The position numbers and the translations under genes were made by a program. A DNA stretch of 37,275 nt from a virus. This document shows positions 1,994 to 33,461 of the stretch, piece by piece. The notes below the pieces were generated by a model, which was not told the DNA's origin, did not search any database, and worked only from the letters and a program-made list of their open reading frames with translations. The stretch is taken from IMG/VR virus record IMGVR_UViG_3300043466_002532, positions 1 through 37,275 of that record. One strand, given 5' to 3'. Each line of letters opens with the position of its first letter. Positions within the stretch are counted from its first letter, which is position 1.

Positions 1994-2306
1994 AATAATA
2001 AAAATAATTATCTAATGATGCTTTATAGTCTTGTAATGAAGGTAGTAAAGGAAAAGGAATTATCAATACCGCACCATCATATATATAATTTTCCAACCCA
2101 CCAAATTCAGAATTTGCTTGCAAAATTAACCACCCAAAGTATGGTGAATTATAAAATTCTTGGGAAACTACATCCAATCTACTTCTACCAACTTTGTATA
2201 TAAAAGTTTTGTCCGTTGTTTTTTGGGGTAATTGCACAAAAGGAACTACGGTTTGTTCACCGTTAATTAAAAAATCACTATATCTATTCCAATATTGATA
2301 TGCCAT
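1983..2306 (-). CDS. Baseplate wedge protein, T4 gp53-like with LysM-like fold
   Basis: The protein has 107 residues. After the N-terminal MAYQYWNRYSDF the sequence FIYKVGRSRLDVVSQEFYNS followed by PYFGWLILQANSEFGGLEN and IPFPLLPSLQDYK matches the pattern of gp53-type baseplate wedge proteins, whose core is a LysM-like fold. In T4, gp53 joins wedges into the baseplate. The start ATG overlaps the stop codon of the upstream 1680-aa gene by one base (TAATG), and the next gene starts 11 bases before this one ends, so the three form a tightly coupled baseplate set. The protein is shorter than T4 gp53 and corresponds mainly to its LysM-like part. Assignment rests on motif resemblance and neighbours. 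Confidence 0.6.
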   Translation of the reverse strand: MAYQYWNRYSDFLINGEQTVVPFVQLPQKTTDKTFIYKVGRSRLDVVSQEFYNSPYFGWLILQANSEFGGLENYIYDGAVLIIPFPLLPSLQDYKASLDNYFYYYGR

Positions 2307-5300
2307 TAGTTAAGTTTTGCTTTAGATATAAATACCTCTGCAGGCTTTTCGTCATTCCATGTTTTATTTTTTGTGTTTTGGTTTTCAACCCAACCTAAAC
2401 CTTTTATTAATTCTTTTTGTGCGGGTGTATTCGCGTCTTCAGTATCATATTCAAAGGTTCTTTTTTTCTTAAGTGTGAATGGAGTATAAATTAAGAAATT
2501 TTTTAATTTATTTTTTTCCATATCATTTATAAACTCTTTAGTAATAGTATTCTCTTCAATAAATAATGGTTTTGCTATCTTATCCCAATATGCATCAAAA
2601 ACTTTATCAATATCCTTCGCACCATCACCAATCAATCCTTCGTTTTTAATTGTATTACCAATTAATGCATTTTTAAATGTTTCATATTTTTTAGTGTCGG
2701 TAACATCATCAGAAACAATCATATATACTCTTCTAAAAATGGGATTATCAAATGTCGACCCAGGACTTAAACTAATATAGTCTTGATTAACACTAAAAGG
2801 TTCGAATACTTCTTCACCTGAAGGTAATTTATAAGGTAAAGGTAAAACTAAAGTTCCTGTATACGATTTACCGTTGTATGTAAAAGTATTTGCACTCCAT
2901 ATAATTTTGTTAAATTCAGTAATTCCACTGTTAATTTTTTTAACATCATTTTCAAGTTCAACTAAAGTATTTGTTGCTGGTGCTGAACTAGCATCAACTT
3001 CTGTGGTTGGGTATAAAATGTATGAAAATACTTGTCCATTACTTTGTTGGTATCCATCAGTTCCTGTATTAGGGATTGCATTATATGTTATTGTGTTAAT
3101 TCTTCCAATATATCCAATATAACTTTGTTGTACCGCAACCATACTATTTGTGATATTAGTTACCGCACTTTGAAATGAACTTCTTTTATTTTTAACAAAA
3201 TTTGAATAGTTTTCTTTAACTTGTCTTATAAGTTTATTTGAAAACCTTTTAGATTTATCTGAAATAAATTGAATGAACGCCTCATCATCATTCTTAATAT
3301 CTTTAACAAGTTGACCAAATATCTCATCAGTTCTTTTTTCTAAATTGTAAGACTTACCAAACAGAGTAGTTCCTGAAGTTTTTGTAATTAAAAAATTACC
3401 CTCAGTATATACTCGTTCCATCATCCATTGTTGACGAACGGCATTATTATATTGGTTAACCGTTTCTCTATTTTTATTAACAACATTTGTAAAATATGAT
3501 TGAGTTTCGGCAACAACTTTATCCATAAAAGTACTATAGTTAATTGTACCTGTTTGACCTGTCTGACTAACAATATTACTTGTTACATCACCAATTGGTT
3601 TGTCATTACTTTGACCATTATTTGGTGTTGTTTGATTAAGTGTTGGGGGAGCAACATTACTTGGTGCTAATTTTAAAAATTCAGCATCAATAACTTTATA
3701 ACTTAAATCAGTAGAATCAGCTCTATCGTCATAGATTTCTGTGTTGGCGTAATAATTAAATGTTAATGCGTTTTGCAATTTATCAACGGATTCTTTTAAT
3801 CCGCTACCACCTACGAAGTTAAACCCTAATGTAATGTTTGCAATCATAGGTTGAACACCAATACCTTCAGGGTTTATATCCAAATTTTCATACTGAATAC
3901 CCAAACTTGTTGGGATTATTTTTGTGTTATAAAAATCACCAACTCTTAATATTAAAACAGGTGGTGCACCAAACGAAGTATTTGTTGCGTCATTATAAAC
4001 AGGTGTTGCTGCACCATTAATAGTTTTGATTGTTGGTATTGTATCACCAGGTCTCATACATTGTTGTAAAAATGTTAACCTTGAGTTAAGTCCTTCGGGT
4101 GTAATTGAGTGAAATGCTGGTTGGAAGAATTTTAATTTATCTCTAAGATTATCATAAACCATAGGAGTTTCTTCTTTAATTGTCTCAAAATAATCACATT
4201 CAGAAAGTAATGAACGTAAAACTCTTTTACTTATATTGTCTTTATCAATATACTTAGGTTCAATCGGAGGAGTTGTAACTGCCTTTGGAACATCATTAGG
4301 AACATTTTCTGTTGTTTCTTTTGCGGGAGGTACCACTTTAGGTGCCTTTAATGTTGATTGTATGTTAGAGATATACGCTCTCCTACAAGCCATTGCCCTT
4401 GTTGTATAAACTTCTTTATTTTGAACAGTACTGTTACTATTTCTGCCATCATTATCACCACAAGAAACACTACTTCCTGGTACAAAAGTTTTAGTTTTCT
4501 CATCAAATTTCATTACTTGGGTATTCTCACCACGACCTTCACCAATTTTAACAATTAAATTTGTTCCAACATATTTTGTCATTCTACTATTACCTGTAAT
4601 GAATATTGCAGCAGAATTAATTCTTTTTGCTGATAAAATATTATTATATGCTTGTGTTGCTGCAGGTGAAGTACTACTATCAATTGTAATTGTTACAACA
4701 CCTTCTATCTTACCTTCAGAGTTAGCGTTACTTATAAATTCTTTTTCTAACGCATCAATTAGACCATCAAGTTTTTGTTTATTAGATATAACCACACTAT
4801 CAAAAAACGAACTTGTTTGAGCTGAAGTTGTTTTTGATTGATATTCTGGTCTTTGTCCAATATAGTTATCATATAATGGAGTAAACGGTTGATTAAATTC
4901 TAATGGTATGTTATTAGCAAAATAAAAACCTACATTTTCAAAAGTCTTAAGTGTTGATTCAGGAGCACCACCAGTTCCCGTATCACTAGATAAATCAGGA
5001 GTTGTTTTAACCGTATTAATTGCAAACTCTAATTGTTCTTTTGATAGTTCTTTTGATGAAATTGCTTGTTGTATATCAAATAAATCGTTAGGTGATATTG
5101 TGTAATATTTTTTTGCAAGCTCATATAAATCATATTTTCTACATCCCGCAAAAAATGATTCTAAAATACTATCAACCCTAACCTTATTTGTTTCATTCGC
5201 TAAAACTTTATTAACAATAACATTTAAAACAGATGGATGGTCAACAACTATTTTCCAAGTTAAACTACCACTTCTACTAGTATTCTTGTAAGTATATATT

Positions 5301-17509: not shown

Positions 17510-17902
17510 ATGATACTTCCACCAAAAAAAATTTATATTTCCAATAGTGATGTACACGGGTTAGGTGTGTTTGCTTTGGAGAAAATATATGAAGGAGAAA
17601 TTATTGAAATTTGTCCTGTTATTGATATGGGATTAAAAAAAGAATCAAGTCATATTTTAATTGATTATCGGTTTAATTGGCCTCAAGGAGGAATAAATTG
17701 GGATAAACAAGTAGTTTCAACAGGTTATGGAATGTTATATAACCATAGTGTTAATTATAATGCTCTTTGGAGGTCAAATATGGAAAACGATTCATTTGAA
17801 TTCTATGCGGTAAAAGAAATAAACCCTAACGAAGAAATTTTCGTTTATTACGGAGATGTTAGTTATTGGAATGATGGTAGAACTCACACAAATATTGTAT
17901 AA
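17510..17902 (+). CDS. SET-domain protein (putative protein lysine methyltransferase)
   Basis: The protein has 130 residues, essentially a bare SET domain. Visible motifs in order are HGLGVFA (16-22, the N-terminal SET motif that contacts AdoMet), GYGMLYNHS (72-80, containing the NHS cofactor-binding/knot motif) and NPNEEIFVYYGD (105-116, the GEEI.x.YG.-type C-terminal motif with the Tyr that lies near the active site). SET enzymes transfer a methyl group from AdoMet to lysine side chains. There is no pre-SET or post-SET Cys cluster. The stop is directly followed by the start of the SNF2-like helicase gene (TAAATG), so the two are very likely co-translated. The target protein is unknown; it could be a phage virion or host protein. 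Confidence 0.75.
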   Translation: MILPPKKIYISNSDVHGLGVFALEKIYEGEIIEICPVIDMGLKKESSHILIDYRFNWPQGGINWDKQVVSTGYGMLYNHSVNYNALWRSNMENDSFEFYAVKEINPNEEIFVYYGDVSYWNDGRTHTNIV

Positions 17903-19657
17903 ATGAATGAAATTAGTTTAGAGTCGAAAGCGATGACTATTCTTGAGACTTATGATGGGGGTAATAACTATCTTTTAGAATTAAAACGTAAATCACAGAT
18001 TAATAAAAAATTCTACCCAACAAGGAGTCAATCGGAATACATTATATCATTTTACGACAAGCAGCCAAAAGTAGCTAAGAAGTGGGTAATTCTTGATGCT
18101 TATTTTGCTCAGAAATTAGCAGATGACAAACTATATACAGAAATCCCACAAAAAGTTTGGGTTGAAAAACTTTTAGCAGATAAAGAAAAGGCATACCACA
18201 TTTGGGGTAAAGTTTTTGATGGTGAAGAACTTCACGATTTTTGGTTACCAAAAGCTGCAATCATAAAAGACAACTCAGTTAAAGATGTGGTAATTGATTA
18301 TTCAAAATACTCTCATCGTCCACCGCTTGAACATCAAAAAGAAGCAATCCAAAAATTGGTTGAAAATAAAAAGTTTATCTTGGCAGATGATATGGGTCTT
18401 GGTAAAACAACTTCAACAATTATTGCTGCATTAGAGGCAGGTTCCAAAAAGGCTTTGATTATTTGTCCTGCCACTTTAAAAATTAACTGGAAACGTGAAA
18501 TTGAAAACTATTCAGATAAAACAGTATTCATTGCCGAAAGTAAAAACTTTAGTACTGAAGCAGATTTTGTTATCATAAACTACGATATTATTAAAAATTT
18601 CCATGACACTAAGAAGAAAGATGAGTCGCAAATTCTTGCTTCCAATTTTGATTTGGTCATTGTTGATGAAGCACACTATATTAAGAATGCTACAGCGCAA
18701 AGAACAAAATTAATTAACGATATTGTTAAAAAAACAGATAGATTGTGGTTGTTAACGGGAACACCAATGACATCACGACCAATTGATTATTTTAACTTGT
18801 TAAGTTTGATTGATTCTCCTGTAAGTAGAAACTGGATGGCGTATGCGATTAGATATTGTCAGGGCTATCAATTTAATGTTGGAGGAAGAAAAGTTTGGAA
18901 CGTGACTGGAGCTTCAAACTTAGAAGAATTAAGAGACCGAACATTAGGATTAACTTTAAGAAGATTAAAAGAAAATGTTCTTGACCTACCTGACAAAATT
19001 ATTACACCTGTTTACTTAAGATTGAAATCAAAACAATACGAAGAAGTAATGGGAGAATACTACGATTGGTATGATAAGAATCCTGAAGAATCAAAATCAT
19101 TAACGGTTCAATTCTCAAAACTAACAAAGGTTAGACAAATTATTGCTGACGAAAAAATTGCTCAAACAATTGAACTTGCAGAAAACATTTTAGAACAAGA
19201 TAAAAAAGTTATTATATTCTGTAACTTTACCGATTCATTAAATAAAATTACCGAACATTTTGGAAAAGCGGCGGTTAAACTTGATGGTTCAATGTCAAAA
19301 CCTGAACGTCAACATTCGGTTGACCAATTCCAAGATAATCCAAAAGTTAAAGTTTTTGTGGGTAATATTAAAGCTGCGGGTGTTGGTATTACATTAACTG
19401 CGGCGGAAGCGGTTATTATGAATGACCTGTCATTTTTACCTTCAGACCACGCCCAATCAGAAGACCGAGCTTATCGTTACGGACAAAAAAATAATGTTTT
19501 GGTTTATTATCCAATCTTTGAAAATACAATAGAAGGAATCATCTACGATATCCTAAACAACAAAAAACAAGTCATCGCAACAGTAATGGGTGACAACCAA
19601 CATCCCGCCGACGCCGCAGAAGAAATTCTACAAAGAATTAATAATCTGAGAAATTAG
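17903..19657 (+). CDS. SNF2-type DNA helicase/translocase
   Basis: The protein has 584 residues with a complete SF2/SNF2 core: Walker A DDMGLGKT (162-169), Walker B DEAH (255-258), motif III LTGTPM (284-289), then in the second RecA-like domain VIIFCNFTDS, KLDGSMSKPERQ, GNIKAAGVGITLTAAE and SEDRAYRYGQ (the Arg-finger motif). These are the hallmarks of ATP-driven dsDNA translocases such as SMARCAL1/HepA-type proteins, which remodel forks or DNA-protein complexes. The N-terminal 130 residues may be a nucleic-acid-binding module and contain WGKVFDGEELHDFWLPKAAI. No nuclease domain is visible. It probably acts in phage replication, repair or recombination, as UvsW does in T4, but the SNF2 motif set is different from UvsW. 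It is coupled to the SET gene upstream. Confidence 0.9.
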   Translation: MNEISLESKAMTILETYDGGNNYLLELKRKSQINKKFYPTRSQSEYIISFYDKQPKVAKKWVILDAYFAQKLADDKLYTEIPQKVWVEKLLADKEKAYHIWGKVFDGEELHDFWLPKAAIIKDNSVKDVVIDYSKYSHRPPLEHQKEAIQKLVENKKFILADDMGLGKTTSTIIAALEAGSKKALIICPATLKINWKREIENYSDKTVFIAESKNFSTEADFVIINYDIIKNFHDTKKKDESQILASNFDLVIVDEAHYIKNATAQRTKLINDIVKKTDRLWLLTGTPMTSRPIDYFNLLSLIDSPVSRNWMAYAIRYCQGYQFNVGGRKVWNVTGASNLEELRDRTLGLTLRRLKENVLDLPDKIITPVYLRLKSKQYEEVMGEYYDWYDKNPEESKSLTVQFSKLTKVRQIIADEKIAQTIELAENILEQDKKVIIFCNFTDSLNKITEHFGKAAVKLDGSMSKPERQHSVDQFQDNPKVKVFVGNIKAAGVGITLTAAEAVIMNDLSFLPSDHAQSEDRAYRYGQKNNVLVYYPIFENTIEGIIYDILNNKKQVIATVMGDNQHPADAAEEILQRINNLRN

Positions 19658-19665
19658 GGAACTAC

Positions 19666-19692
19666 GGATTATTTATATATAATGGATAATCC
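19666..19692 (+). promoter_or_regulatory. Inverted repeat and TATTTAT box before the SOD-fusion gene
   Basis: Arms GGATTAT and ATAATCC (7 bases each) flank a 13-base centre. A TATTTAT box (19670-19676) overlaps the left arm and ends 22 bases before ATG 19699. The layout could be a promoter with an overlapping operator. Confidence 0.3.
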
Positions 19693-19698
19693 AAATTT

Positions 19699-21231
19699 AT
19701 GAAAAAAACACAAGAGAAAATCCAACAACTAGAAACACAAATACTTGAAAACCACGTTAACCAAGAAAAAAAGTTGTTGATTACCGAAATGAAAAAAATA
19801 GGAATAGAAAAATTACCTTACTCCTATACAGCCCTCAAACAGTTTATTGACCCAGAGACAATGAACTTTCATTATAATAAACATTATAAAGGGTACGTGG
19901 ATAAACTAAACGACGCGTTAGCTAAAAAGAAATACGGAGATTTAGATTTAGAAAAAATTATCAAGACCATAAGTCGTTTTGATAAGACAATAAGAAACAA
20001 CGCAGGTGGGGCATTTAACCACGCATTGTTTTGGAACATGTTAACTCCTGACCCTAAAAAACTTGACGGTGAACTTTATAAAAAGATAACCAAACAATGG
20101 GGGACTTTCACAAACTTTAAAAAAGAATTTGAAAAACAAGCCAAAGACCGTTTTGGTTCAGGTTGGGTTTGGTTAATTCTCACATCAAATAATACATTAA
20201 AAATTATGTCAACTCCAAACCAAGACAATCCATTAATGAATGTGATTGAAGGTGGTGGATTTCCTTTACTTGGATTAGATTTGTGGGAACACGCTTATTA
20301 TTTAAAATATAGAAACAAAAGAGACGAATATATCACAAACTTTTGGAAAGTTGTTAATTGGGATTTTGTCACCAAGATGTATGAAATGAGAGTTGAAACA
20401 AAACTTACCGAATCAACAAAAATGAAACAAGTTTTAAGTGAAGGTAAATCTGAAATGTGTTCTCAATCTGAAAATGAATTTTACAGAATGTTGTTTAACG
20501 TAAATTCAGATGTTAAATGGACTTACATGAATGGTATCAATAAAATAATGAAGGATGTATTTCCTGAAAATTATATTGTAAATCCTGAGAACGACCAATT
20601 ACCTGGTGTTTATGACCTTGAAGGACATGGTAGGTCAGTTATCAATAAGTTAAACACAAATTACACATCTTTTTGTATTTTATTAAAAGATTTAAATCAG
20701 GTTATTACAAAAATTCCTGGCAAACAACCAATTAGTTTCATGGATAAAAAACCTATGGAACAAAAGAAAGAGGTTGAAAGATTTATTAAAGCAATAGACC
20801 ACTTCAAATATAGAATCTTTGATAAGGATAGTTTAACTCTTCATAACTTATTAAGAACCTTAACCGAAAAAGACAAGGCTGGTTCCAAAAGAGAAGAAAT
20901 CACCGCGTCAATTCTCAAGAGACATTTTGGTAAAGATGTTAAGATTGAAGTGATTGGTGAGTTAGGAAACAAAAGGGATGCAATCCAAGGAGTTGATTTG
21001 GAAATAACAAAAGACGGTGAAGTTTTAACTGGTCAAATTAAACCATTTAGAACTATGATTATTGGTGAAGATGGGATTACTTTAGAGGGAACCGCAAGTG
21101 TTAAAATTTATAACACAGACTTAATGATTTTTCAAAAAGGTAAGAATGTTTTGATATTTAATAAGAAACCTAAAATTGTTAGAGGTAATTTTGTGTTTCC
21201 TGTGGATTCACTAATGTACAATATACAATAA
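19699..21231 (+). CDS. Mn-type superoxide dismutase fused to a C-terminal nuclease-like domain
   Basis: The protein has 510 residues. Residues 35-231 form a complete Fe/Mn superoxide dismutase: metal ligands H58 (FHYNKHYKGY), H108 (NHALFW), D194 and H198 (LDLWEHAYYLKY). Gly in NNAGGAFNH and Gln in TPNQDNPLM are the Mn-type pattern, so it should convert superoxide to peroxide and oxygen. Normal SODs end about here, but this protein continues for about 280 residues. In that part KREEITASILKRHF is followed by GNKRDAIQGVDLEI and LTGQIKPF, a D433-x12-Q446-x-K448 arrangement like a PD-(D/E)XK nuclease core with Gln in place of Glu. No linker stop or frameshift is visible. The nuclease call is tentative. 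It follows the SNF2-like gene on the same strand and precedes the gp13-like gene. Confidence 0.85.
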   Translation: MKKTQEKIQQLETQILENHVNQEKKLLITEMKKIGIEKLPYSYTALKQFIDPETMNFHYNKHYKGYVDKLNDALAKKKYGDLDLEKIIKTISRFDKTIRNNAGGAFNHALFWNMLTPDPKKLDGELYKKITKQWGTFTNFKKEFEKQAKDRFGSGWVWLILTSNNTLKIMSTPNQDNPLMNVIEGGGFPLLGLDLWEHAYYLKYRNKRDEYITNFWKVVNWDFVTKMYEMRVETKLTESTKMKQVLSEGKSEMCSQSENEFYRMLFNVNSDVKWTYMNGINKIMKDVFPENYIVNPENDQLPGVYDLEGHGRSVINKLNTNYTSFCILLKDLNQVITKIPGKQPISFMDKKPMEQKKEVERFIKAIDHFKYRIFDKDSLTLHNLLRTLTEKDKAGSKREEITASILKRHFGKDVKIEVIGELGNKRDAIQGVDLEITKDGEVLTGQIKPFRTMIIGEDGITLEGTASVKIYNTDLMIFQKGKNVLIFNKKPKIVRGNFVFPVDSLMYNIQ

Positions 21232-21255: not shown

Positions 21256-22377
21256 ATGGCAGTTATTCCAGAACCAGAAAGGTCAAAAATTTATACAAGA
21301 GTTAAACACTTATTGGGTGCACCAATAAGAAGTGTTGAGATTGAAGATGAAATGATGGATTCTTTAATGGAACTCTCTATTCAAGATTATGAACAATACA
21401 TTTTAAATTGGTTGATTGATAGTCAATGGGTTAACTTGGTTAACTTAAACATGACAGAAAAATCTGTTTCAAGAGCATTGATTACAAGAACAATGGATTT
21501 TGAACAACAGTTCTCATATTCGTATTCAAAAATTGTTGGTTTACAAGCTGAAGGTCCTTGGGTATTAAAGAAAGATTATATCATTCTTGAAGAGAACAAA
21601 CAAAACTACGAAATACCTGCTGGCCGTGAAATTAACGAAGTATTATGGTTTAGCAATCAACCTATTACCGCATTTGGTATGGGGGGTATTGGTGGATTTG
21701 GAGGTGTAGGTCTTGGAGCCAACGAAGCTGGTTTTGCTCAAATGGGGTATCAAGGTTCTTATTTTATGATGTCAGGGTTTGACTATCTAATAAGAATGCA
21801 AGAGGCAAACATCTTGAATAGAATTCTTGGTGGTTCTTTAACTTATAGAATAACGGCATTACCTGATGGTAAAAAAGATTTACAATTATATAACGCTCCT
21901 GGTAACCAATTTAATTGGGGTAACTATAGTCAATATGTTGGTAAAGCTGTGTGGTATTGGTATTACGATGTAACACCTGACAGTAGAGCAGATTGTTTAA
22001 AAAATAATCCTGATGTAATTAAATCACCAAATGATGTTCCATTAGAAGAACTTACTTGGTCTGACTTAAACGTACCCGCACAACAATGGGTTAGAAGGTG
22101 GTTTACCGCTTACGTTAAAGAAACATTAGGTAGGGTTAGAGGAAAATATAGTGGAAACTTGAAGGTTCCTGATTCAGAATTAACCATGGACTACACAAGT
22201 TTGTTGACCGAAGGTAAAGATGAAAAAACAAAATTAATAGAAGAACTTACAGGTGCTGAAGGTTGGTTAACAAGACTAAGACCTGAAAAAGTTATGGAAC
22301 GAGAAGCGTTAATCGCAGAGAACTTAAATAAACAAATGAAGTTCCGAGCAATGCCTCGTCAAATATATGTAATTTAA
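21256..22377 (+). CDS. Neck protein, T4 gp13-like
   Basis: The protein has 373 residues. The N-terminal VKHLLGAPIRSVEIEDEMMD followed by helix SLMELSIQDYEQYI is the typical opening of gp13-type neck proteins (LGAP...VE...), and the C-terminal part VRRWFTAYVKETLGRVRGKY, then KVPDSELTMDYTSLLTEGKD, matches the closing helices and loop of that family. gp13 and gp14 complete the head after DNA packaging and connect it to the tail. A Gly-rich insert (MGGIGGFGGVGLGANEAGFA) near residues 138-160 is unusual for T4 itself. It lies on the strand opposite to the tail operon, with the neck-like and gp15-like genes about 4 kb away. Confidence 0.7.
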   Translation: MAVIPEPERSKIYTRVKHLLGAPIRSVEIEDEMMDSLMELSIQDYEQYILNWLIDSQWVNLVNLNMTEKSVSRALITRTMDFEQQFSYSYSKIVGLQAEGPWVLKKDYIILEENKQNYEIPAGREINEVLWFSNQPITAFGMGGIGGFGGVGLGANEAGFAQMGYQGSYFMMSGFDYLIRMQEANILNRILGGSLTYRITALPDGKKDLQLYNAPGNQFNWGNYSQYVGKAVWYWYYDVTPDSRADCLKNNPDVIKSPNDVPLEELTWSDLNVPAQQWVRRWFTAYVKETLGRVRGKYSGNLKVPDSELTMDYTSLLTEGKDEKTKLIEELTGAEGWLTRLRPEKVMEREALIAENLNKQMKFRAMPRQIYVI

Positions 22378-22381
22378 CATT

Positions 22382-22717
22382 ATGGCAATTATAAGAACAA
22401 TCCCATCTACAAGATTAATCAATGGGGAAATATTAGAAACATCAGAAATTTCAATTGTATCTGAAAGAGAATACAGAACTAATGGAGAGGAATGTATAAT
22501 CATTAGAAATGTGGCAGAATCTACAATTATTTTAGATTCTAAAACAACTGACCACGTTGTGGTAAAGGCAATGACAAGAATAATAATCAAACCTGACACA
22601 GGTAAGATTGATGAGGACTACGATGAAATAGTTGCCGACAAATACGCTTGTATTGAATTTAGATTCTGCTCAGGTAACTGGTATATTTTATCTTCAGATG
22701 GATTGAAGCAGTCCTAA
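22382..22717 (+). CDS. Small beta-rich virion-like protein (111 aa)
   Basis: The protein starts MAIIRTIPSTRLINGEILET and continues as alternating short strands, with EECIIIRNVAESTIILDSKT, DHVVVKAMTRIIIKPDTGKI and a closing FRFCSGNWYILSSDGLK. This regular strand pattern ending in GNWY.LSSDG is common in small phage fibre, head-decoration or tail-tip proteins. It begins four bases after the gp13-like gene, so it is probably expressed with it. Its last 24 bases overlap the end of the convergent DNA polymerase gene. No specific function is recognised. Confidence 0.6.
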   Translation: MAIIRTIPSTRLINGEILETSEISIVSEREYRTNGEECIIIRNVAESTIILDSKTTDHVVVKAMTRIIIKPDTGKIDEDYDEIVADKYACIEFRFCSGNWYILSSDGLKQS

Positions 22718-25888: not shown

Positions 25889-25909
25889 AACAATAAATAT
25901 ATTGTTATG
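25886..25909 (-). promoter_or_regulatory. Perfect 10-bp hairpin covering upstream stop and downstream start codon
   Basis: Arms CATAACAATA and TATTGTTATG (forward strand) are perfectly complementary around a four-base spacer. In the minus transcript one arm includes the TAA stop (25907-25905) of the 781-aa gene and the other the ATG (25888-25886) of the 125-aa gene. Translation of the upstream gene would have to open the hairpin for the downstream start to be read. A TATTTAT sequence (25893-25899) lies in its loop and arm, so it could also be a DNA palindrome for a regulator. Confidence 0.6.
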
Positions 25910-28250
25910 ACTCTTTTCTTAAACTTCTTTCATAATGGTCAAATCTATCGTGTTCGGTTGGTGTCATAAGTAATAACCCAGGATATAATTCACCTTCTTT
26001 AACTAATTGATACATATGACTCATCCACGTCTGCTCAAAAGGATGCCCCCATGTTGTATCTAAGAACATTTTTTGATTACCTGTTCTGGTCACAATTTGT
26101 GGCCAGTTACAATAATAAACATCTCCAGTCACATATGGGACACCTTGATGTGTCCTAACTGAATTGTATTCCGCTTTTGGTGCATTTGGGTCTAAACCTT
26201 GTTCAGGTAATCTATTTTTACCTGGCCAATATTTTTGTCTAACATTTTGTGGAACATTGTACCAAGCCCATTGGGTTCCATTATCACCAAAAAACTCACT
26301 AAAATTAAGTTTAAGAAAATCAAAATTTTCTTTTTTAACGATTTGAAGTGTTTTACTGTATAAGTTTGGAACATATCTGTTAAAACCATTTCTACATACT
26401 TTGCCTTCGTTTGGATAAAAAAACATGTCGTCCTCAAAAAATAAATAAAAATCTAACTCAGTTTCATTTTGAAAATGTTCCGCAATCCATTGACGACCAC
26501 CACAAATCCCTAAATTATCTTTTTTAATATGTTCAAAATTATATTCAATACAAAGTTTACTATACTCTTCAAAAGTTGAGACATCAGATGAATTATCTAA
26601 TAAGAATTTTGTTGTCTTATTAAGATAATCTTTATCGTATGCCAACATAGAATCTATTAAAGTTCTAAATTGTTTTGGACTATTAAATGTAATAACATAT
26701 AACCCAACTTTATTAGTATCTAAATTATTAACAACAGATATTTTACTTTCAGATTTAGGTTTTAAATCATTATTTTTTAAATCTTCAAAAAACTTACTCA
26801 TTAACCCATTTGATTCTATTTCAAAATAATTAATTAAATCCGAATGTTTATATGACATAATGGTGAAAACACTTTCTTCTGTTCCCATATAACCATCATT
26901 TAATGTTGATGATAGTAGTCCATAATAGATTGAATTAATATCTGATATTGTATGTTTTGGACCACCAAAGAATCCTCCTCTAGCCACTTTATTTACTTTA
27001 TCACCAGCAATTGAATTTAACTTATTATATTCAAATCCGTGTATTTCGGTCTCCGCACCATACGGAAAACAAACAAATGAAAACTTTGAAATATATTTGG
27101 GTAATTTTTCTAAAACTTTATCGTGTGTGAAATATCCTGGATGAACAGTATTTGTTAATCCCGCATCAATCCAAAACATATATTCCGAATCAAACTTATC
27201 CATTATTTTAGCATCATTTAATAGAAACACTTTAGACATCACCAATGGATTGTAATTATCTAATTTGGCTTGTGTTGATTCTGATAACCATCCAGCTCGG
27301 TTGTACCATTCAGGATTATTTCTTATTTCTTGTATTTTATCGTATGGAACCGTTTGTTTAAACCATTCTTGTTGTCTAACAATAAATTGTGTATTTGATT
27401 TATCCCTTCTCTCAAAGACAAATGATTCTAATTCAGAATCGCCAAATATTATCATTGGATTGTCAACCCGTAAAAGTTGTTCAAATTTATCTAAATAATG
27501 TTGAAATGAACGAGACCAACCTTCACCAAGTGATTCTCTATTAATGTTCCAAAGTCCTGTTACTAAAGTTATGTCATTTGATTTGATTGTTTCCTTAATA
27601 ATATCTTGTTGTACTAGTTTTGCGTTTTTTCTAAATGCTCCAACTTGTGTAGTAACTTCAACTACATTATTTTCAATACCTCTTAATTCAAAGAAATCCT
27701 TAATCGCCGCTTCAACACCAGGTAAATCATTTCTTTTATAATCGTGGAAAAATATATAACCACCATCAACAACTCTATCATAAATTTTAACTAAACTATC
27801 ATATATTGAATCGTAAAAATCCCCATCTAAAAACGCAAATGAAATTTTTTCAGGTAATTTATCTTCAGGAATATCACAAAACCAACCTTTTGTTATTATT
27901 GGTGTCGGTAAATTATTCTCAATAAAATTACTTGTTAAAACATCTTCGCTACTTACTAAAGTTCTAGGTTTCCATCCAGTGTTAATTTCCCATTTAGATA
28001 AATCTGGCAATCCCTCAAATGAATCATATACATATAATTTTTTATTAGAATTAGTTTCAATTAAAGTTTTCATTAGGTATTTACTTGATTCTCCAACATA
28101 ACAACCTAATTCAACCACATCACCGTCTATATTATTTTCAATGGTATCTAACAAATAATATACTAATTTTTCAATTTGTGTGCTATTAATTATTGAAGAA
28201 TTAACTTGTTTATTGTTAAATCCCATTATTTTCTTTAAAAGATGCTTCAT
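25905..28250 (-). CDS. Three-domain protein: TylF-like methyltransferase, HtrL/YibB-like domain, GT-A glycosyltransferase
   Basis: The protein has 781 residues. Residues 25-205 look like a TylF/MycF-type O-methyltransferase (AdoMet motif VVELGCYVGESSKYL at 45-59, metal-ligand-like FLDGDFYDS at 140-148 and FFHDY at 167-171). Residues 225-490 resemble the HtrL/YibB family (LVTGLWNINRES, MFWIDAGLTN, ARGGFFGGPK), a GT-A-like group of poorly known function. Residues 512-775 form a glycosyltransferase 2-like domain (LYVITFNSPKQFRTLIDSML, with a DxD-like FFEDDMFF at 604-611). The three enzymes would be expected to build and methylate a glycan. It ends the glycosylation cluster and lies 25 bases after the CmcI-like methyltransferase gene. 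The domain order is clear; substrates are unknown. Sequencing of a single long fusion is intact with no frameshift seen. Confidence 0.75.
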   Translation of the reverse strand: MKHLLKKIMGFNNKQVNSSIINSTQIEKLVYYLLDTIENNIDGDVVELGCYVGESSKYLMKTLIETNSNKKLYVYDSFEGLPDLSKWEINTGWKPRTLVSSEDVLTSNFIENNLPTPIITKGWFCDIPEDKLPEKISFAFLDGDFYDSIYDSLVKIYDRVVDGGYIFFHDYKRNDLPGVEAAIKDFFELRGIENNVVEVTTQVGAFRKNAKLVQQDIIKETIKSNDITLVTGLWNINRESLGEGWSRSFQHYLDKFEQLLRVDNPMIIFGDSELESFVFERRDKSNTQFIVRQQEWFKQTVPYDKIQEIRNNPEWYNRAGWLSESTQAKLDNYNPLVMSKVFLLNDAKIMDKFDSEYMFWIDAGLTNTVHPGYFTHDKVLEKLPKYISKFSFVCFPYGAETEIHGFEYNKLNSIAGDKVNKVARGGFFGGPKHTISDINSIYYGLLSSTLNDGYMGTEESVFTIMSYKHSDLINYFEIESNGLMSKFFEDLKNNDLKPKSESKISVVNNLDTNKVGLYVITFNSPKQFRTLIDSMLAYDKDYLNKTTKFLLDNSSDVSTFEEYSKLCIEYNFEHIKKDNLGICGGRQWIAEHFQNETELDFYLFFEDDMFFYPNEGKVCRNGFNRYVPNLYSKTLQIVKKENFDFLKLNFSEFFGDNGTQWAWYNVPQNVRQKYWPGKNRLPEQGLDPNAPKAEYNSVRTHQGVPYVTGDVYYCNWPQIVTRTGNQKMFLDTTWGHPFEQTWMSHMYQLVKEGELYPGLLLMTPTEHDRFDHYERSLRKES

Positions 28251-28275
28251 ATTTTTTTAATTATATTATTTGATA

Positions 28276-28905
28276 TTATTTTTTTTGTCTACATGTCCAC
28301 ACCACGGTTTCAAAAACTTCCTTATTATAATAGTCTAAATTGTTAGAAACACAAGAGTCCTTAATATCATCATTAGATATTTCAAACCAATTCCATATTT
28401 TTCTATTAATTTTTTCTTCAAAAATTTCTCGGTTTTCACCATAATCGTGTGCCATAATAAAATCACCTGATTTTATATATTTAGACAAAACATTAAATTC
28501 CCCAATTTTATATCCACCATCACATAACACAACTGTTAAACCGTCTTGTTGAATAAAATCAATGACTTCTTGTTTAACTATTTGATAGTTATCACTAAAA
28601 ATATCTTCAACCCTAACATTAATTCCTTCATTAATCATATCAGTATACCATCCCATTCTGTGAATATCATATGATATAATTTCAATATCTAAATTAGATT
28701 CGTCGGAAACTTTTTTTAAGAATTGAGTAAATCCCCCTAAGGCAGTGCCTATTTCTAATATTCTTTTTGGTTTTACTTCATTTAAAAAATCATAAAATAC
28801 TTGATACACATTATGGTTTTGTTGAGACGCCATTCCCAAATACGATGACAATCCATCATTTTCTTCTAAATTAATTTTTTTAGTTATTTTTTCTTCTATA
28901 TTCAT
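28276..28905 (-). CDS. SAM-dependent methyltransferase, CmcI/cephalosporin-hydroxylase-like
   Basis: The protein has 209 residues. Motif I is ILEIGTALGG (49-58), followed by an acidic strand ISYDIH, then VVLCDGGYKIGEFNVLSKYI (126-145) and FIMAHDYGEN (149-158). The CDGG and HDYG pair is typical of the CmcI/Rossmann methyltransferase group that modifies sugars and antibiotics. No signal peptide. The gene follows the GT10-like gene by one base and precedes the three-domain gene, so it probably methylates sugars made by the cluster. Substrate unknown. Confidence 0.7.
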   Translation of the reverse strand: MNIEEKITKKINLEENDGLSSYLGMASQQNHNVYQVFYDFLNEVKPKRILEIGTALGGFTQFLKKVSDESNLDIEIISYDIHRMGWYTDMINEGINVRVEDIFSDNYQIVKQEVIDFIQQDGLTVVLCDGGYKIGEFNVLSKYIKSGDFIMAHDYGENREIFEEKINRKIWNWFEISNDDIKDSCVSNNLDYYNKEVFETVVWTCRQKK

Positions 28906-28906
28906 A

Positions 28907-29764
28907 TTATAATGTTATTATTTTTTTTAATGGATTATTTTTTTTAAAATATTTTTCTTTAATAATTTTTAGGCCACTTATTTTTTGTTGATAAATTTCA
29001 TTAGGATGTTCTAATATATTATTTAATAAATTTTCAATTCCATTAATATCGTTAATATCATCTATTAAAATATAACCATCTTCAGGGTATATATCTTTAA
29101 TATTTTTACAACCAAAATAAATTGGTATTGTATCTGTTAATATATTATCATAAAATTTTTCAGTAATCCAGTTTTTTTCAAAAGAATTTTCTATTGATAT
29201 ATTAAATTTATAATCAACTAACGCATCCTTACGTTTTGGACTATTACTACCGTCAAACACATCTATTGTACCCATCTGTCTAATTCTTTCAAGTATCTTA
29301 TATCTTTGTGGGTATAAACAGGTGCTACCACTATCAGTATTTAAATTTGTCATTGAACTTGAAATTATTTTAGTTTTTATAAATGTTGAATTAATTAATG
29401 TTTCGTAATTCCAAAAATCTAATGTGTCAACCCAAGGACCTCTTCCACCATAAAAAGTATGTGCAATAGATTCTATAAAATTACCATTGTATAATTCGTT
29501 AGAAAACCCATAAACACTTGTTTTTTCATCAAAGTTTTTTTGATGAGAACCAGACCAAGATGGTTCATGAGGAAATACAAAAGATTTTGCACCAGATTTA
29601 ATTTCAAGATTAACGTAATTAAAAAATATTACTGTATCATATGAATCATCAAAAACAAATTCAATTTTTGATAAATCTATTTCAGGGGTTTTAAATTGTT
29701 TTATTAATCTTTTTGTAAGATTCTCAGACGTATCGTATCCTGCGGATATTCTTATTTTCTTCAT
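28907..29764 (-). CDS. GT10-like (fucosyltransferase-type) glycosyltransferase
   Basis: The protein has 285 residues from ATG 29764, which I chose because it overlaps the upstream TGA stop as ATGA; a longer version would need a TTG start at 29782. The C-terminal half carries the signature of alpha-1,3-fucosyltransferases: KDALVDYKFNISIENS (179-194), NWITEKFYDNIL (198-209) and PIYFGCKNI (214-222), which bind GDP-sugar. The N-terminal part supports acceptor binding and has FPHEPSW. It lacks a membrane anchor, so it is soluble. It is one of four consecutive glycosyltransferase or methyltransferase genes with overlapping or near-touching ends. The donor may be GDP-fucose or a related GDP-sugar; acceptor unknown. 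Confidence 0.75.
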   Translation of the reverse strand: MKKIRISAGYDTSENLTKRLIKQFKTPEIDLSKIEFVFDDSYDTVIFFNYVNLEIKSGAKSFVFPHEPSWSGSHQKNFDEKTSVYGFSNELYNGNFIESIAHTFYGGRGPWVDTLDFWNYETLINSTFIKTKIISSSMTNLNTDSGSTCLYPQRYKILERIRQMGTIDVFDGSNSPKRKDALVDYKFNISIENSFEKNWITEKFYDNILTDTIPIYFGCKNIKDIYPEDGYILIDDINDINGIENLLNNILEHPNEIYQQKISGLKIIKEKYFKKNNPLKKIITL

Positions 29765-30540
29765 CGTTTTATCTTTTCCCAATTATTATAATTAAACCCT
29801 ACTTTAAGAACATTACATTGATTATTCCAATCCATTTCACCAACATTATATCCCGCTAAAAAAGCCGAAACACCAATTTCAAAAGCTTCCATATCCCAAG
29901 TTATTGGATGATTAATATCTTGGCTTTCAAATTTGGTACAAAACGTTTCAAATTCATTTGCCATTACTTGTAATTTTTCATTATTTTTTATTAAAAGAAT
30001 ATGTTCACTTGGAAAACACGACCCTCTCCATTCAGGTTTAATCCCATAAAATTTAAATTTATTATCAAATAAATAACTTTTATTATTAGATAATCCATCT
30101 AAATATTGAAGTTCAGAATCAACATAAGTTGCATTAGTTCTTAACGCCACCATATCATGCCCCCCTGATTCCCAATTATCTATTAATTTTTCTAAAACAT
30201 TAACATCAATTTTTTCTGTGAAACCAGCATCGCAATCCAAATATAAAACCCAATCATATTTTTTATCAATATCCTTTATAGCATTAAACTTTAATAGTTG
30301 ATTAAAAACCCCAACATGAGTTTTATGGTTTTCTAATAATTCATGTCTGATTATTATTTTAGAATTATTTAAACCAATAACATCTGAAAAATTGTCAATG
30401 TTATTTGTGGTTATCATAATATCATAAGGTGTTTTTGTTAAAACATCATTAATTAATCTTTTTGCAAATGTTGCATAAATTTCGGAACCATTTTTTGTTG
30501 GATTAACAAACGATATTGCTGATACTAATATATTCCTCAT
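29761..30540 (-). CDS. GT-A-like glycosyltransferase (DxD motif)
   Basis: The protein has 259 residues. It opens with a Rossmann-like strand (MRNILVSAISFVNPT) and has DWVLYLDCDAGFTEKI (96-111) with the DCD metal-binding motif at 102-104. Downstream, GSCFPSEHILLIKNNEK and ITWDMEAFEIGVSAFLAGYN resemble the acceptor half of GT-A enzymes such as GT8/GT34-like transferases. The gene overlaps its upstream and downstream neighbours by four bases each (ATGA), so the three are translationally coupled. Donor and acceptor are unknown. Confidence 0.65.
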   Translation of the reverse strand: MRNILVSAISFVNPTKNGSEIYATFAKRLINDVLTKTPYDIMITTNNIDNFSDVIGLNNSKIIIRHELLENHKTHVGVFNQLLKFNAIKDIDKKYDWVLYLDCDAGFTEKIDVNVLEKLIDNWESGGHDMVALRTNATYVDSELQYLDGLSNNKSYLFDNKFKFYGIKPEWRGSCFPSEHILLIKNNEKLQVMANEFETFCTKFESQDINHPITWDMEAFEIGVSAFLAGYNVGEMDWNNQCNVLKVGFNYNNWEKIKR

Positions 30541-31472
30541 AATTCTAATAAATTTAATGTGTGTTTAACATTGTTATATCTGCTCAAATAGGTGTCATAA
30601 TATTCTTTAGCATTTTTTGAAATAAAGGATAAAAATTCTTTATCATCTTTAACTTCTAAAAATCTTTTTTCAATCATTGCCGCATGAGTTTCATTACCTA
30701 ATCTATCAATTACTAAATCACTTGGTCTATCAATTGAAATGTAATGGTAATTTGGAATTAATTTAGGATTTAAGTTTGTTGTGTATTCAAATCTTATAAA
30801 AGGAACACCGATTGCCATGTATTCAATATCTCGGTAACATAATTCACCTCTACCTGCAACAGACAAACCAACTTTATAATTAATTAAATCTTTGAAATAC
30901 ACATTAGGCCCTCCGATTGGTCTAATACCTTCCAAATAATCTTGATTAAAATGGCTCAATATTGACCTATCCTCAATTGAAGTACCTCTAAAGTACATTT
31001 TATCAATTAAGGTTTCTTTATTCTTACGTTCTTCAAAAAACGGTACTAAATCATTTATCGTACAAGGGAAATAAATCCAAGGACTATATTTTTCAAAGTT
31101 ATCGTTGCCAACGTTATTTAATATTTCATTTTTTGTAAATTGAGAGACCAAAACTTTTTTTAATTTTGGATTATTTTTTTCATTTAAAATACAATGTGTT
31201 AAATTATCTGATACTGACATAATGTAAAATTCACCCGTATCTTCAAATTCAATAACATATTCACATTCTAATAATAAAAAATTATTTTCATCTGATGTTT
31301 GGTTTTTTAGGTTAACTTTAAATCTTTGTGAATTTGCAAATTCGTAATAACGATTTTCTTCTACAATGTATTTCTTCTTTAATTCTTCCGTTAAATCATC
31401 CCAAAATAAATTATAATTTCTAAAGTATCTTGTGTGCTCATTACACGGATTGTGTACTATTATTTTTCTCAT
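30537..31472 (-). CDS. GT-B-like glycosyltransferase, GT90/exostosin-like
   Basis: The protein has 311 residues. After an N-terminal beta-rich half comes KMYFRGTSIEDRSILSHFN (158-176), then INYKVGLSVAGRGELCYRDI (197-216) and EYMAIGVPFIRFEYTTN (217-233) and NYHYISIDRPSDL. The pattern of a conserved R..IL, an S.AG.GE..YRD motif and a P...hYI closing strand resembles CAP10/GT90 and exostosin-like enzymes. It has no membrane anchor. Overlap of four bases with the next gene indicates coupling; the preceding gene ends 22 bases upstream. The family call is by motif only; it might be a different GT-B family. Confidence 0.55.
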   Translation of the reverse strand: MRKIIVHNPCNEHTRYFRNYNLFWDDLTEELKKKYIVEENRYYEFANSQRFKVNLKNQTSDENNFLLLECEYVIEFEDTGEFYIMSVSDNLTHCILNEKNNPKLKKVLVSQFTKNEILNNVGNDNFEKYSPWIYFPCTINDLVPFFEERKNKETLIDKMYFRGTSIEDRSILSHFNQDYLEGIRPIGGPNVYFKDLINYKVGLSVAGRGELCYRDIEYMAIGVPFIRFEYTTNLNPKLIPNYHYISIDRPSDLVIDRLGNETHAAMIEKRFLEVKDDKEFLSFISKNAKEYYDTYLSRYNNVKHTLNLLEL

Positions 31473-31494
31473 TAATTACTATTAATTTGATTGT

Positions 31495-32184
31495 TTATTT
31501 TTTTCTTAGGATGAACCATACCTCCTGTTCCCTAAAACTATCAAATTTTTTAGATACAATTTCAAGACCCAATGACTCCAATATTTTTTCTGTAGTGACC
31601 GCATTATCCAAAATGTGTAAACCTAACGGCATTGACCCACAATGTACCATATAACCATGTTCATGTGTTATATCTGAACAAATAACATTAGGGTATGGAA
31701 CTACTAAATAAAACAAACCATTAGTTTTTAATGTTTTTAACATATTTTTAATACTATATTCAGGATTTAAAACATGTTCCATTGTATGTGATGAATATAG
31801 AACATCAAAAAACTCTGAAAATTCTAAATCAAAACTATCAGAACAAATATCTTGTTTTATTACAGGATATCCGTAAGTTACTGAATAATCAATTTTCTTA
31901 TCAGAAATTTCAAAACCAACAACATTTTTAAATCCTAATTCTTTAAAGAAGTCTAAACCAACACCATCCCCACAGCACATATCAGCAATTTTTAAATTCC
32001 TATCCAAATCATTAAAATTTTCAATTATATATCTTCTTTGCCCCTCTTTAAAATTTTCATAAAAAGATTCAAAAGAACATCCTGTAATTGTTTGCCAATT
32101 AATATAATCCTCATATGATGAAAATTTAGGACCAATGTCGCCATTTCTTTTGTTTGCAAAATTTACTAATTCTTGTTTTTTCAT
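31495..32184 (-). CDS. Class I SAM-dependent methyltransferase (Methyltransf_11/23-like)
   Basis: The protein has 229 residues. AdoMet motif I is KIADMCCGDGVGLDFF (65-80), motif II VVGFEISDKK (88-97), and post-motif FFDVLYSSHTMEHVLNPEYS (near 123-142) followed by a strand, helix and LFYLVVPYPN. This is the standard layout of methyltransferases that act on sugars or small molecules. It lies between the GT60-like gene (11 bases upstream) and the GT90-like gene, so it belongs to the same operon. Substrate unknown. Confidence 0.75.
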   Translation of the reverse strand: MKKQELVNFANKRNGDIGPKFSSYEDYINWQTITGCSFESFYENFKEGQRRYIIENFNDLDRNLKIADMCCGDGVGLDFFKELGFKNVVGFEISDKKIDYSVTYGYPVIKQDICSDSFDLEFSEFFDVLYSSHTMEHVLNPEYSIKNMLKTLKTNGLFYLVVPYPNVICSDITHEHGYMVHCGSMPLGLHILDNAVTTEKILESLGLEIVSKKFDSFREQEVWFILRKK

Positions 32185-32195
32185 TTTTTTTTATT

Positions 32196-33461
32196 TTAAC
32201 TTACCGTATTATGTGTTAATTGACCTGTGATTCTATCACACCATCCTTTTGATTCTGAGTGAGGCCAAACCACCCAATGTGAAGGTAACTCATCAGTTTG
32301 GAATTCTCTCCATACTTTACAATATTTGTCAGGGTCTCTCATGAAACCAGCAATTTCATTTTTGTCTGCATCTTTACGGAACAATGTTTTATCATCTTTA
32401 CCATGGAATGCAACAACCCAAAAATCATAATCTGTTTCAGGAACTTGAGAATAACCAATATCAATACAGTGTTTAAACATCATACAGAAACTATCTTTCC
32501 ATTCTTGTTCTGTTTCAAAATTATATGGATTTGGTGGGTAATTTTTATCTAAAGTATATTTGTCAATTGCTCTTTTTGAAAAAAGAATACCAGCATATTT
32601 TTCATAATCTGTTAAACTTCTAACAGGACCAAAACCATAAGGACCATCATGACCTTCTTGAGTTTCACCATCCATACCAAATAATTTTCTATTTGTTAAG
32701 TGTGAGTGACTATTCTTTTGTCCCCAAGTTTTATCATCATCCCATTGTTTTGTTCTACCCTTACGAGTGTATTCATGGTAAACAACAGGAATATGTGTAT
32801 GGAATAAATCATAACCCCAAGTGTAAGCTCTTGCTGCGATTGAAATCTCTTCACCATGGAAATAATATTCAGGGTTGTGTTGAACTTCAGTTGAAAATTG
32901 TCCTAATGTAAAACAGAAGTGAGCTGAGTAAAATCTTGCGGTTACAGGTTTTTTCATTTCTTTCCAACCTGGTATTGTTTCAGGTAAGAAAAATACTGCA
33001 CCTTCAGGAATAAAACGGTCAAACGCCATTCTCCACGCATCAGTTGCTCTTCCTGCAGGGTCATTATCGGGGTCGAAAGAAGGTACGTAGCCCGTAAGTA
33101 GAGGCTTCTTGTACCCGTCCTTCTGCAACCCCTTTATCATTTTGATAAGAATATCATCCCAATCCTTAACAAATCTCATGTGAGAATCTATTTGTAATGT
33201 GTATGTCTCACCTTTATAAAGTTGTTGAACTTGGTGTCTCGCCCAACATACACCTTTGGCGTCTTGATATGGAATATCTAAGATTCTAAATCTTTTGTCG
33301 TCTTTATATTCATCTAAATTATCAAACCCGTCTTCAGGACTATATTGTCTTGCAATACCGATAACAAGGTTATTTGGTTTTTTGGCGTTTGCCAACATGT
33401 CTTTAATAGTAGGGACCAACTGAGGGTCTCTGTAAGATGCTATTTGAACGAATATTTTCAT
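32196..33461 (-). CDS. GT60-like polypeptide GlcNAc-transferase (PF11397-type)
   Basis: The protein has 421 residues. It starts MKIFVQIASYRDPQLVPTIK, followed by a Lys/Asn-rich loop and VIGIARQYSPEDG; then QIDSHMRFVKDWDDILIKMI (90-109) gives the DxH metal motif, and HGEEISIAARAYTWGYDLFH then VVYHEYTR (near 202-232) completes the pattern. These are the hallmarks of the family that includes Dictyostelium Skp1 GlcNAc-transferase and trypanosomal mucin O-GlcNAc-transferases, which attach GlcNAc to hydroxyproline or threonine of proteins. No membrane anchor is present, so it is cytoplasmic like Skp1 GnT. It is the first gene of the glycosylation cluster, directly downstream of Thr/Pro-rich fibre genes but separated by a terminator. 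Its target here is unproven. Confidence 0.8.
   Translation of the reverse strand: MKIFVQIASYRDPQLVPTIKDMLANAKKPNNLVIGIARQYSPEDGFDNLDEYKDDKRFRILDIPYQDAKGVCWARHQVQQLYKGETYTLQIDSHMRFVKDWDDILIKMIKGLQKDGYKKPLLTGYVPSFDPDNDPAGRATDAWRMAFDRFIPEGAVFFLPETIPGWKEMKKPVTARFYSAHFCFTLGQFSTEVQHNPEYYFHGEEISIAARAYTWGYDLFHTHIPVVYHEYTRKGRTKQWDDDKTWGQKNSHSHLTNRKLFGMDGETQEGHDGPYGFGPVRSLTDYEKYAGILFSKRAIDKYTLDKNYPPNPYNFETEQEWKDSFCMMFKHCIDIGYSQVPETDYDFWVVAFHGKDDKTLFRKDADKNEIAGFMRDPDKYCKVWREFQTDELPSHWVVWPHSESKGWCDRITGQLTHNTVS

Follow-up and report, generated by a model that had tools for sequence, protein, structure and literature searches.

Why would a bacteriophage encode a superoxide dismutase (SOD) in one reading frame with a nuclease-like domain? 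The question is posed by a 510-residue frame in the window, by which we mean the whole stretch of DNA analysed here, a linear IMG/VR record of 37,275 bp. The initial annotation had described one uninterrupted frame with an SOD followed by about 280 extra residues. The frame is indeed unbroken and the extension is real, but the latter comprises approximately 262 residues (249-510), and the two recognised domains are preceded by a 30-residue leader, ahead of an SOD starting near residue 36, that had gone unmentioned (Table 1).

Table 1. Features of the SOD-nuclease locus, in window coordinates
Feature	Position	Strand	Basis
SOD-nuclease gene (putative precursor)	19699..21231	+	one uninterrupted ORF, 510 aa
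N-terminal leader, 30 residues, ending ITE (residues 28-30)	19699..19788	+	homologous to SOD-less leaders
Mn-type SOD domain, residues 36-229	19804..20385	+	Pfam, PDB alignment, invariant residues
SOD ligand codons	19870, 20020, 20278, 20290	+	metal ligands
Candidate prohead-protease site 1, L236-T237-E238, then S	20404..20412	+	conserved motif
Candidate prohead-protease site 2, L246-S247-E248, then G	20434..20442	+	conserved motif
Helical part of nuclease module, residues 249-377	20443..20829	+	confident model; invariant NKLNTNY
PD-(D/E)XK-like core, residues 378-510	20830..21228	+	invariant residues, model, fold search
Core codons E399, D433, Q446, K448	20893, 20995, 21034, 21040	+	invariant residues
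SNF2-type helicase, constant upstream neighbour	17903..19657	+	synteny
Neck/head-tail adaptor-like protein, constant downstream neighbour	21256..22377	+	weak phrog_211 match (7e-10); synteny
Conserved 111-aa protein, same cluster	22382..22717	+	synteny
TATTTATA promoter-like motif (19670-19677) in inverted repeat GGATTAT...ATAATCC	19666..19692	+	upstream of gene

An assembly or base-call error that merged two genes, the possibility raised against the initial annotation, now deserves almost no credence. At the first 186 loci, which were retrieved with the 510-residue protein as query so that their counts are not frequencies, SOD and C-terminal module share a single frame in 186 of 187 domain-bearing ORFs, and the length of the fused protein is nearly constant, mostly 508-512 aa. 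These loci, assembled independently, yield 71 distinct fused proteins with a conserved linker, which rules the artefact out. Only at L119 does a frame break interrupt the C-terminal module, and only L337, discussed below, carries the two parts as separate genes; we found no other support for an artefact. In viral contigs, 560 stretches contain a relative of the protein, and the 80 of them that were retained match over essentially its full length except for three, in which the match stops at residue 418, 473 or 453 at a contig end.

The first domain is, by its sequence, an intact Mn-type SOD. Pfam recognises Sod_Fe_N (1.1e-21) and Sod_Fe_C (7.8e-40) over residues 36-226, both above the curated cut-off (SOD scores of 135.5 and 77.5 bits against cut-offs of 20.9 and 27), and MnSODs of the PDB align to residues 38-230 at 4e-58. 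The four metal ligands noticed at the outset (H58, H108, D194 and H198) are invariant among 39 diverse homologues, as are the Mn-type second-sphere residues G104 and Q175, likewise anticipated, and the dimer-interface residues WEHAYY and H62. We rely on sequence for this identity because the full-length model was poor over its SOD half, probably owing to a shallow alignment. The nearest cellular SODs come mostly from Bacteroidota, at about 50% identity; the fused architecture is absent from the best 80 cellular SOD homologues, whose longest stop-to-stop frame is 323 aa.

Sequence, a confident model and a fold search support the two-domain reading of an Mn-SOD plus a PD-(D/E)XK-like nuclease, whose C-terminal module consists of an alpha-helical part and a PD-(D/E)XK-like core. 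The pattern GVDLEI...TGQIKPF, from which the initial annotation had proposed such a core, is real and its key residues are invariant, but the motif reads D-QxK, not D-ExK, and besides the proposed D433 the helix before it supplies one more invariant acidic residue, E399. E399, G431, D433, Q446 and K448 are all invariant in the 39 diverse homologues; the equivalents of E399, D433, Q446 and K448 are invariant in 11 sequences with identity down to 23%, and G431, D433, Q446 and K448 are kept even in far homologues from phages of 735 kb and 634 kb. Because a fold search with the full-length model gave only SODs among the matches listed, the module was modelled by itself. The structure prediction and fold search suggested earlier gave a confident model (AlphaFold2, 39 natural sequences; pLDDT 92, pTM 0.87), in which E399 sits on a long helix, D433 immediately precedes a strand, and Q446 and K448 lie on the next strand; nuclease folds are among its best matches. 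The best PDB match is I-Ssp6803I (2ost; probability 1.00, E 0.014, partial alignment), Hjc enzymes match with probabilities of 0.94-0.97, and RecU, MGME1 and restriction enzymes lie lower; the high-probability matches are PD-(D/E)XK enzymes, and several family-B polymerases match with probability below 0.1. Since no fold match reaches E 0.001, the assignment rests on fold plus motif.

Sequence profiles tie the module to no curated family above cut-off. A PDB sequence search with module profiles returned nothing relevant, the Hjc profile (PF01870) matched 0 of 12 relatives' records at E<=10, and curated PD-(D/E)XK families gave no match above cut-off; an identity with DUF6602, MC4 or EcoO109I was dropped, as these Pfam scores were sub-threshold and inconsistent from member to member. 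A profile built without these sequences does find homologues in the 735-kb phage (7e-24) and the 634-kb phage (9e-11) and a second protein in an SOD-less relative (4e-14). A second homologue of the module, 375 aa long with a different N-terminal half, is encoded in an SOD-less 272-kb phage (L409:17805-18929). No homologues were found in cellular genome contigs, nor in 296 Bacteroidota genomes, the latter by a weak search with no positive control. The earlier suggestion of a toxin-like or defence-related nuclease was not borne out and was dropped: PADLOC gave no match for P0001 or P0002, and its best matches in relatives were short and no better than E ~0.003. We likewise found no support for the SOD part as a sensor.

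Comparison among relatives shows that the nuclease is the conserved part of the fusion, the SOD being absent in frame in one clade. In another clade it has been lost or has become a separate gene, and the syntenic position is the same in every case. In L337, found by searching with the neighbouring neck-like gene, the SOD (241 aa) and the module are encoded separately, by two intact genes with about 65 bp between them. A search with the L337 module recovered divergent fused members (L364-367) and, as the initial annotation had suggested looking for, modules without SOD in other phages (L343-349, L350-363 and L368-369); the SOD-less contigs, which reach 309 kb and may be incomplete, showed no SOD_C domain at any other place. 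A tree built from helicase, neck-like protein and PolB puts the pair L337 (split) and L343 (SOD-less) inside the fused phages, with the fused L364 as sister to another SOD-less clade. The L337 SOD is 92% identical to that of a close fused relative, while its nuclease is 69-82% identical to those of SOD-less phages and at most 48% identical to the main fused group (60% to L364). Similarly, in L114 and L115 the SOD is 85-100% identical to that of the window and similarity drops sharply after about residue 238. These patterns show that nuclease modules have been exchanged at the domain boundary while the SOD stayed constant. At the place expected for the SOD in L345, an HNH-endonuclease-like ORF (724-1419) lies between helicase and SOD-less nuclease.

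The gene sits in a constant order of helicase, SOD-nuclease, neck-like protein, 111-aa protein and PolB. Its promoter-like motif TATTTATA starts 29 bases before the start codon and recurs upstream of nearly all homologues; in a 182-kb relative it precedes 29 of 172 genes against 1.9 expected, and its core TATTTAT stands upstream of the sheath, tube, protease and portal genes. Other genes carry TATATTTG, which fits the TAnnTTTG element of Bacteroidota promoters. The lineage consists of T4-type myoviruses that probably infect freshwater Bacteroidota. Several further features were observed in this region and its counterparts. The GGATTAT/ATAATCC repeat around TATTTATA is kept in many relatives with differing loop lengths and is a possible operator. 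A SET-domain protein (17510-17902; PF00856, 1.1e-13) adjoins the helicase, and a SET-like ORF (L374:5482-5919) adjoins the nuclease gene of the 735-kb phage. At 948 aa, the L337 helicase (473-3319) is longer than its counterparts of about 583 aa and contains an intein-like insertion in the Walker B region (VDE-CFTYDTKI...VSNC-H). A methyltransferase and glycosyltransferase cluster at 25905-33461 includes TylF with HtrL_YibB, CmcI-like, GT10 fucosyltransferase and GlcNAc transferase members.

The anatomy of leader and linker bears on how the two domains may be used. T4 gp21 cuts after L/I-X-E, and the propeptides serve as capsid-targeting sequences (PMC9026906); the leader end and both linker positions apparently match this rule. 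At site 1, L236 and E238 are invariant in 39 of 39 homologues with S, T or N at P1', and at site 2 all 39 have L, I or M at 246 and E248 with only G, A or S at P1', while the residues between the sites vary. In the proteomes of relatives, 0.075% of positions have two such motifs within a 16-aa window. The fused leader is always 30 aa and ends in L/I-T-E; in SOD-less versions (the L351 clade) the leader is likewise exactly 30 aa long and ends in VLSE before S. When 613 N-termini are scored against the fused-leader profile, this SOD-less leader comes first or second, only one or two others do as well, and no more than 20 of 5000 shuffles reach its score. The SOD is thus an in-frame cassette between a shared leader and the nuclease. 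A gp21-type protease is found above cut-off in 10 of 12 long relatives, and relatives also encode a gp23 capsid protein (1.5e-71). Near N-termini, L/I-x-E is enriched across three relatives' proteomes (141 against 72.5 expected, a count that may include paralogues), with no significant enrichment of the controls LTD, LTQ and LTK; the effect is weak in one genome (G010, p=0.046), and association with TATTTAT is significant in two of the three. Such motifs can persist for other reasons, since the neck-like neighbour, whose cleavage is unexpected, carries a conserved SLLTEGK. In the 634-kb phage the first ten residues of the nuclease end in I-K-E before S. Many small proteins in L380-L411 (G009, G010 and G003) begin MK(V/I)(I/V)ITE(S/N), with leaders of 7 residues that end in I/L-T-E; G003 has 23 such proteins among 309, where 2.6 are expected. 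They may form a large group of proteins packaged in the head.

We therefore favour, at a probability a little below one half, a late head precursor that is cut by a phage protease into SOD and nuclease, which are probably ejected with the DNA. A late core gene would encode a three-part precursor of leader, Mn-type SOD and D-QxK PD-(D/E)XK nuclease; the leader would take it into the prohead core, where the lineage's gp21-type protease would cut after L/I-x-E at the leader end and at two places in the linker, freeing SOD and nuclease from each other inside the capsid. Both would enter the next host together with the DNA, the SOD removing superoxide at infection and the nuclease cutting host or competing DNA. 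Somewhat more tentatively, both enzymes may be injected at the very first moment of infection, so that superoxide defence and DNA attack would arrive together. Late expression, packaging, cleavage, ejection, the enzyme activities and the nuclease target are inferences. In favour of the proposal are the promoter-like motif shared with structural genes and the invariant L/I/M-x-E linker sites together with the lineage's protease and gp23. There are precedents: T4 packages enzymes in this manner, the SOD of PBCV-1 is made late and packaged in the virion (PMC7019647), and foreign nucleases packaged T4-style can stay silent until activated (PMC9026906). Further observations weaken this proposal. 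In T4 internal proteins the targeting sequences have 10-19 aa, fewer than the 30 of this leader; split and SOD-less forms make the SOD dispensable, and the homologue in the 735-kb phage has no L/I-x-E leader.

The strongest rival, though on balance unlikely, is that the module serves the lineage as its Holliday-junction or branch-resolving enzyme, acting in the cytoplasm before packaging in place of T4 gp49 (EndoVII), with an optional SOD limiting oxidative damage near DNA. It would suit a core gene whose catalytic residues are invariant in all members, including SOD-less ones, a late-type promoter motif and the presence of Hjc among the best fold matches. EndoVII, RuvC, RusA and Hjc were not detected above cut-off in 11-12 long relatives, and the EndoVII profile (PF02945) found the T4 gp49 control at 3.9e-23; the relatives searched are, however, fragments, and the search covered those four families. 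A resolvase would also leave the leader and L/I-x-E sites unexplained, the module has no sequence match to Hjc, and its alleles are swapped and diverge faster than the SOD, more like an arms-race protein. The head-precursor and resolvase readings are not mutually exclusive.

An oxidative-stress enzyme tethered to DNA processing, as first proposed, is less probable again, although its Mn-SOD and nuclease-like domains are both present. Here an uncleaved SOD dimer would both hold the nuclease at DNA and dimerise it, shielding phage DNA synthesis from superoxide or providing the nuclease with Mn; this would fit a near-constant fusion conserved in most members and the invariant dimer interface. Tethering is disfavoured because the linker contains two expected substrate sites of the lineage's own protease and because the nuclease also occurs without SOD or as a separate gene. 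Least plausible among the functional accounts is a host-protecting auxiliary SOD fused by chance to an unrelated gene. Freshwater phages often carry genes for defence against reactive oxygen species, including SODs (PMC6802176), and unfused SODs are present in other phages, but the fused proteins are 65-100% identical with invariant linker and leader, which a random fusion would be unlikely to keep.

The protein resembles several known systems and matches none of them entirely. It shares with the T4 internal head proteins (IPI-III, Alt) a gp21-type protease in the lineage, a structural-gene promoter motif and allele variability. Its candidate targeting leader ends in L/I-x-E but is 30 aa long, each precursor holds two enzymes, and its presence in the virion is predicted. 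The PBCV-1 enzyme is likewise a viral SOD, late and packaged, as is proposed here, but it is an unfused Cu/Zn SOD of an unrelated family in a eukaryotic virus. Relative to Fe/Mn SODs (PF00081/PF02777), from which it differs by the leader ahead and the module behind, it keeps both domains, all ligands, the Mn-type second sphere and the dimer interface. The module gives a fold match to I-Ssp6803I and resembles the DREN domain of SPARDA in its motif, DREN having a documented D-QxK active site (D41/Q60/K62) and itself resembling I-Ssp6803I (PMC12205087). It has no significant sequence similarity to either and possesses an extra helical part with NKLNTNY; unlike I-Ssp6803I it is not in an intron, being a constant syntenic core gene with no mobile context in the loci examined, and unlike DREN it is not accompanied by an Argonaute. 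Archaeal Hjc is likewise a fold match, but the module is larger and without a profile match, and any resolvase activity is hypothetical.

Phage SODs were already known (PMC6802176), and the same architecture is probably present in UniProt as A0A6J5L953 ('superoxide dismutase [uncultured Caudovirales phage]', 501 aa), judging by length, name and fold (TM 0.89, 34% identity over the C-terminal part); its annotation covers the SOD only and leaves the C-terminal half without description. A marine phage protein, A0A8D9CCA0 (1113 aa), also matches the module in fold (TM 0.84). We found no description of an SOD-nuclease fusion in the literature searched. As far as we searched, what is new is the nuclease module and its ability to occur independently of the SOD, the anatomy of leader and candidate protease sites, and the exchange of modules.

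These findings bear on how phage SODs are viewed, since they are usually classed as auxiliary metabolic genes that aid the infected host. In this large family of freshwater T4-type phages, the SOD is instead an optional module with exact boundaries within a core gene beside a neck gene, joined through protease-like sites to a nuclease family that reaches phages of 634-735 kb and is, as far as searched, undescribed. The fused, split and SOD-less forms, together with the swapped nuclease alleles, constitute a natural series for testing the packaging idea. If the precursor is packaged, redox enzymes would be among the proteins that phages inject, and these phages would have to face superoxide as a barrier when their DNA enters the cell.
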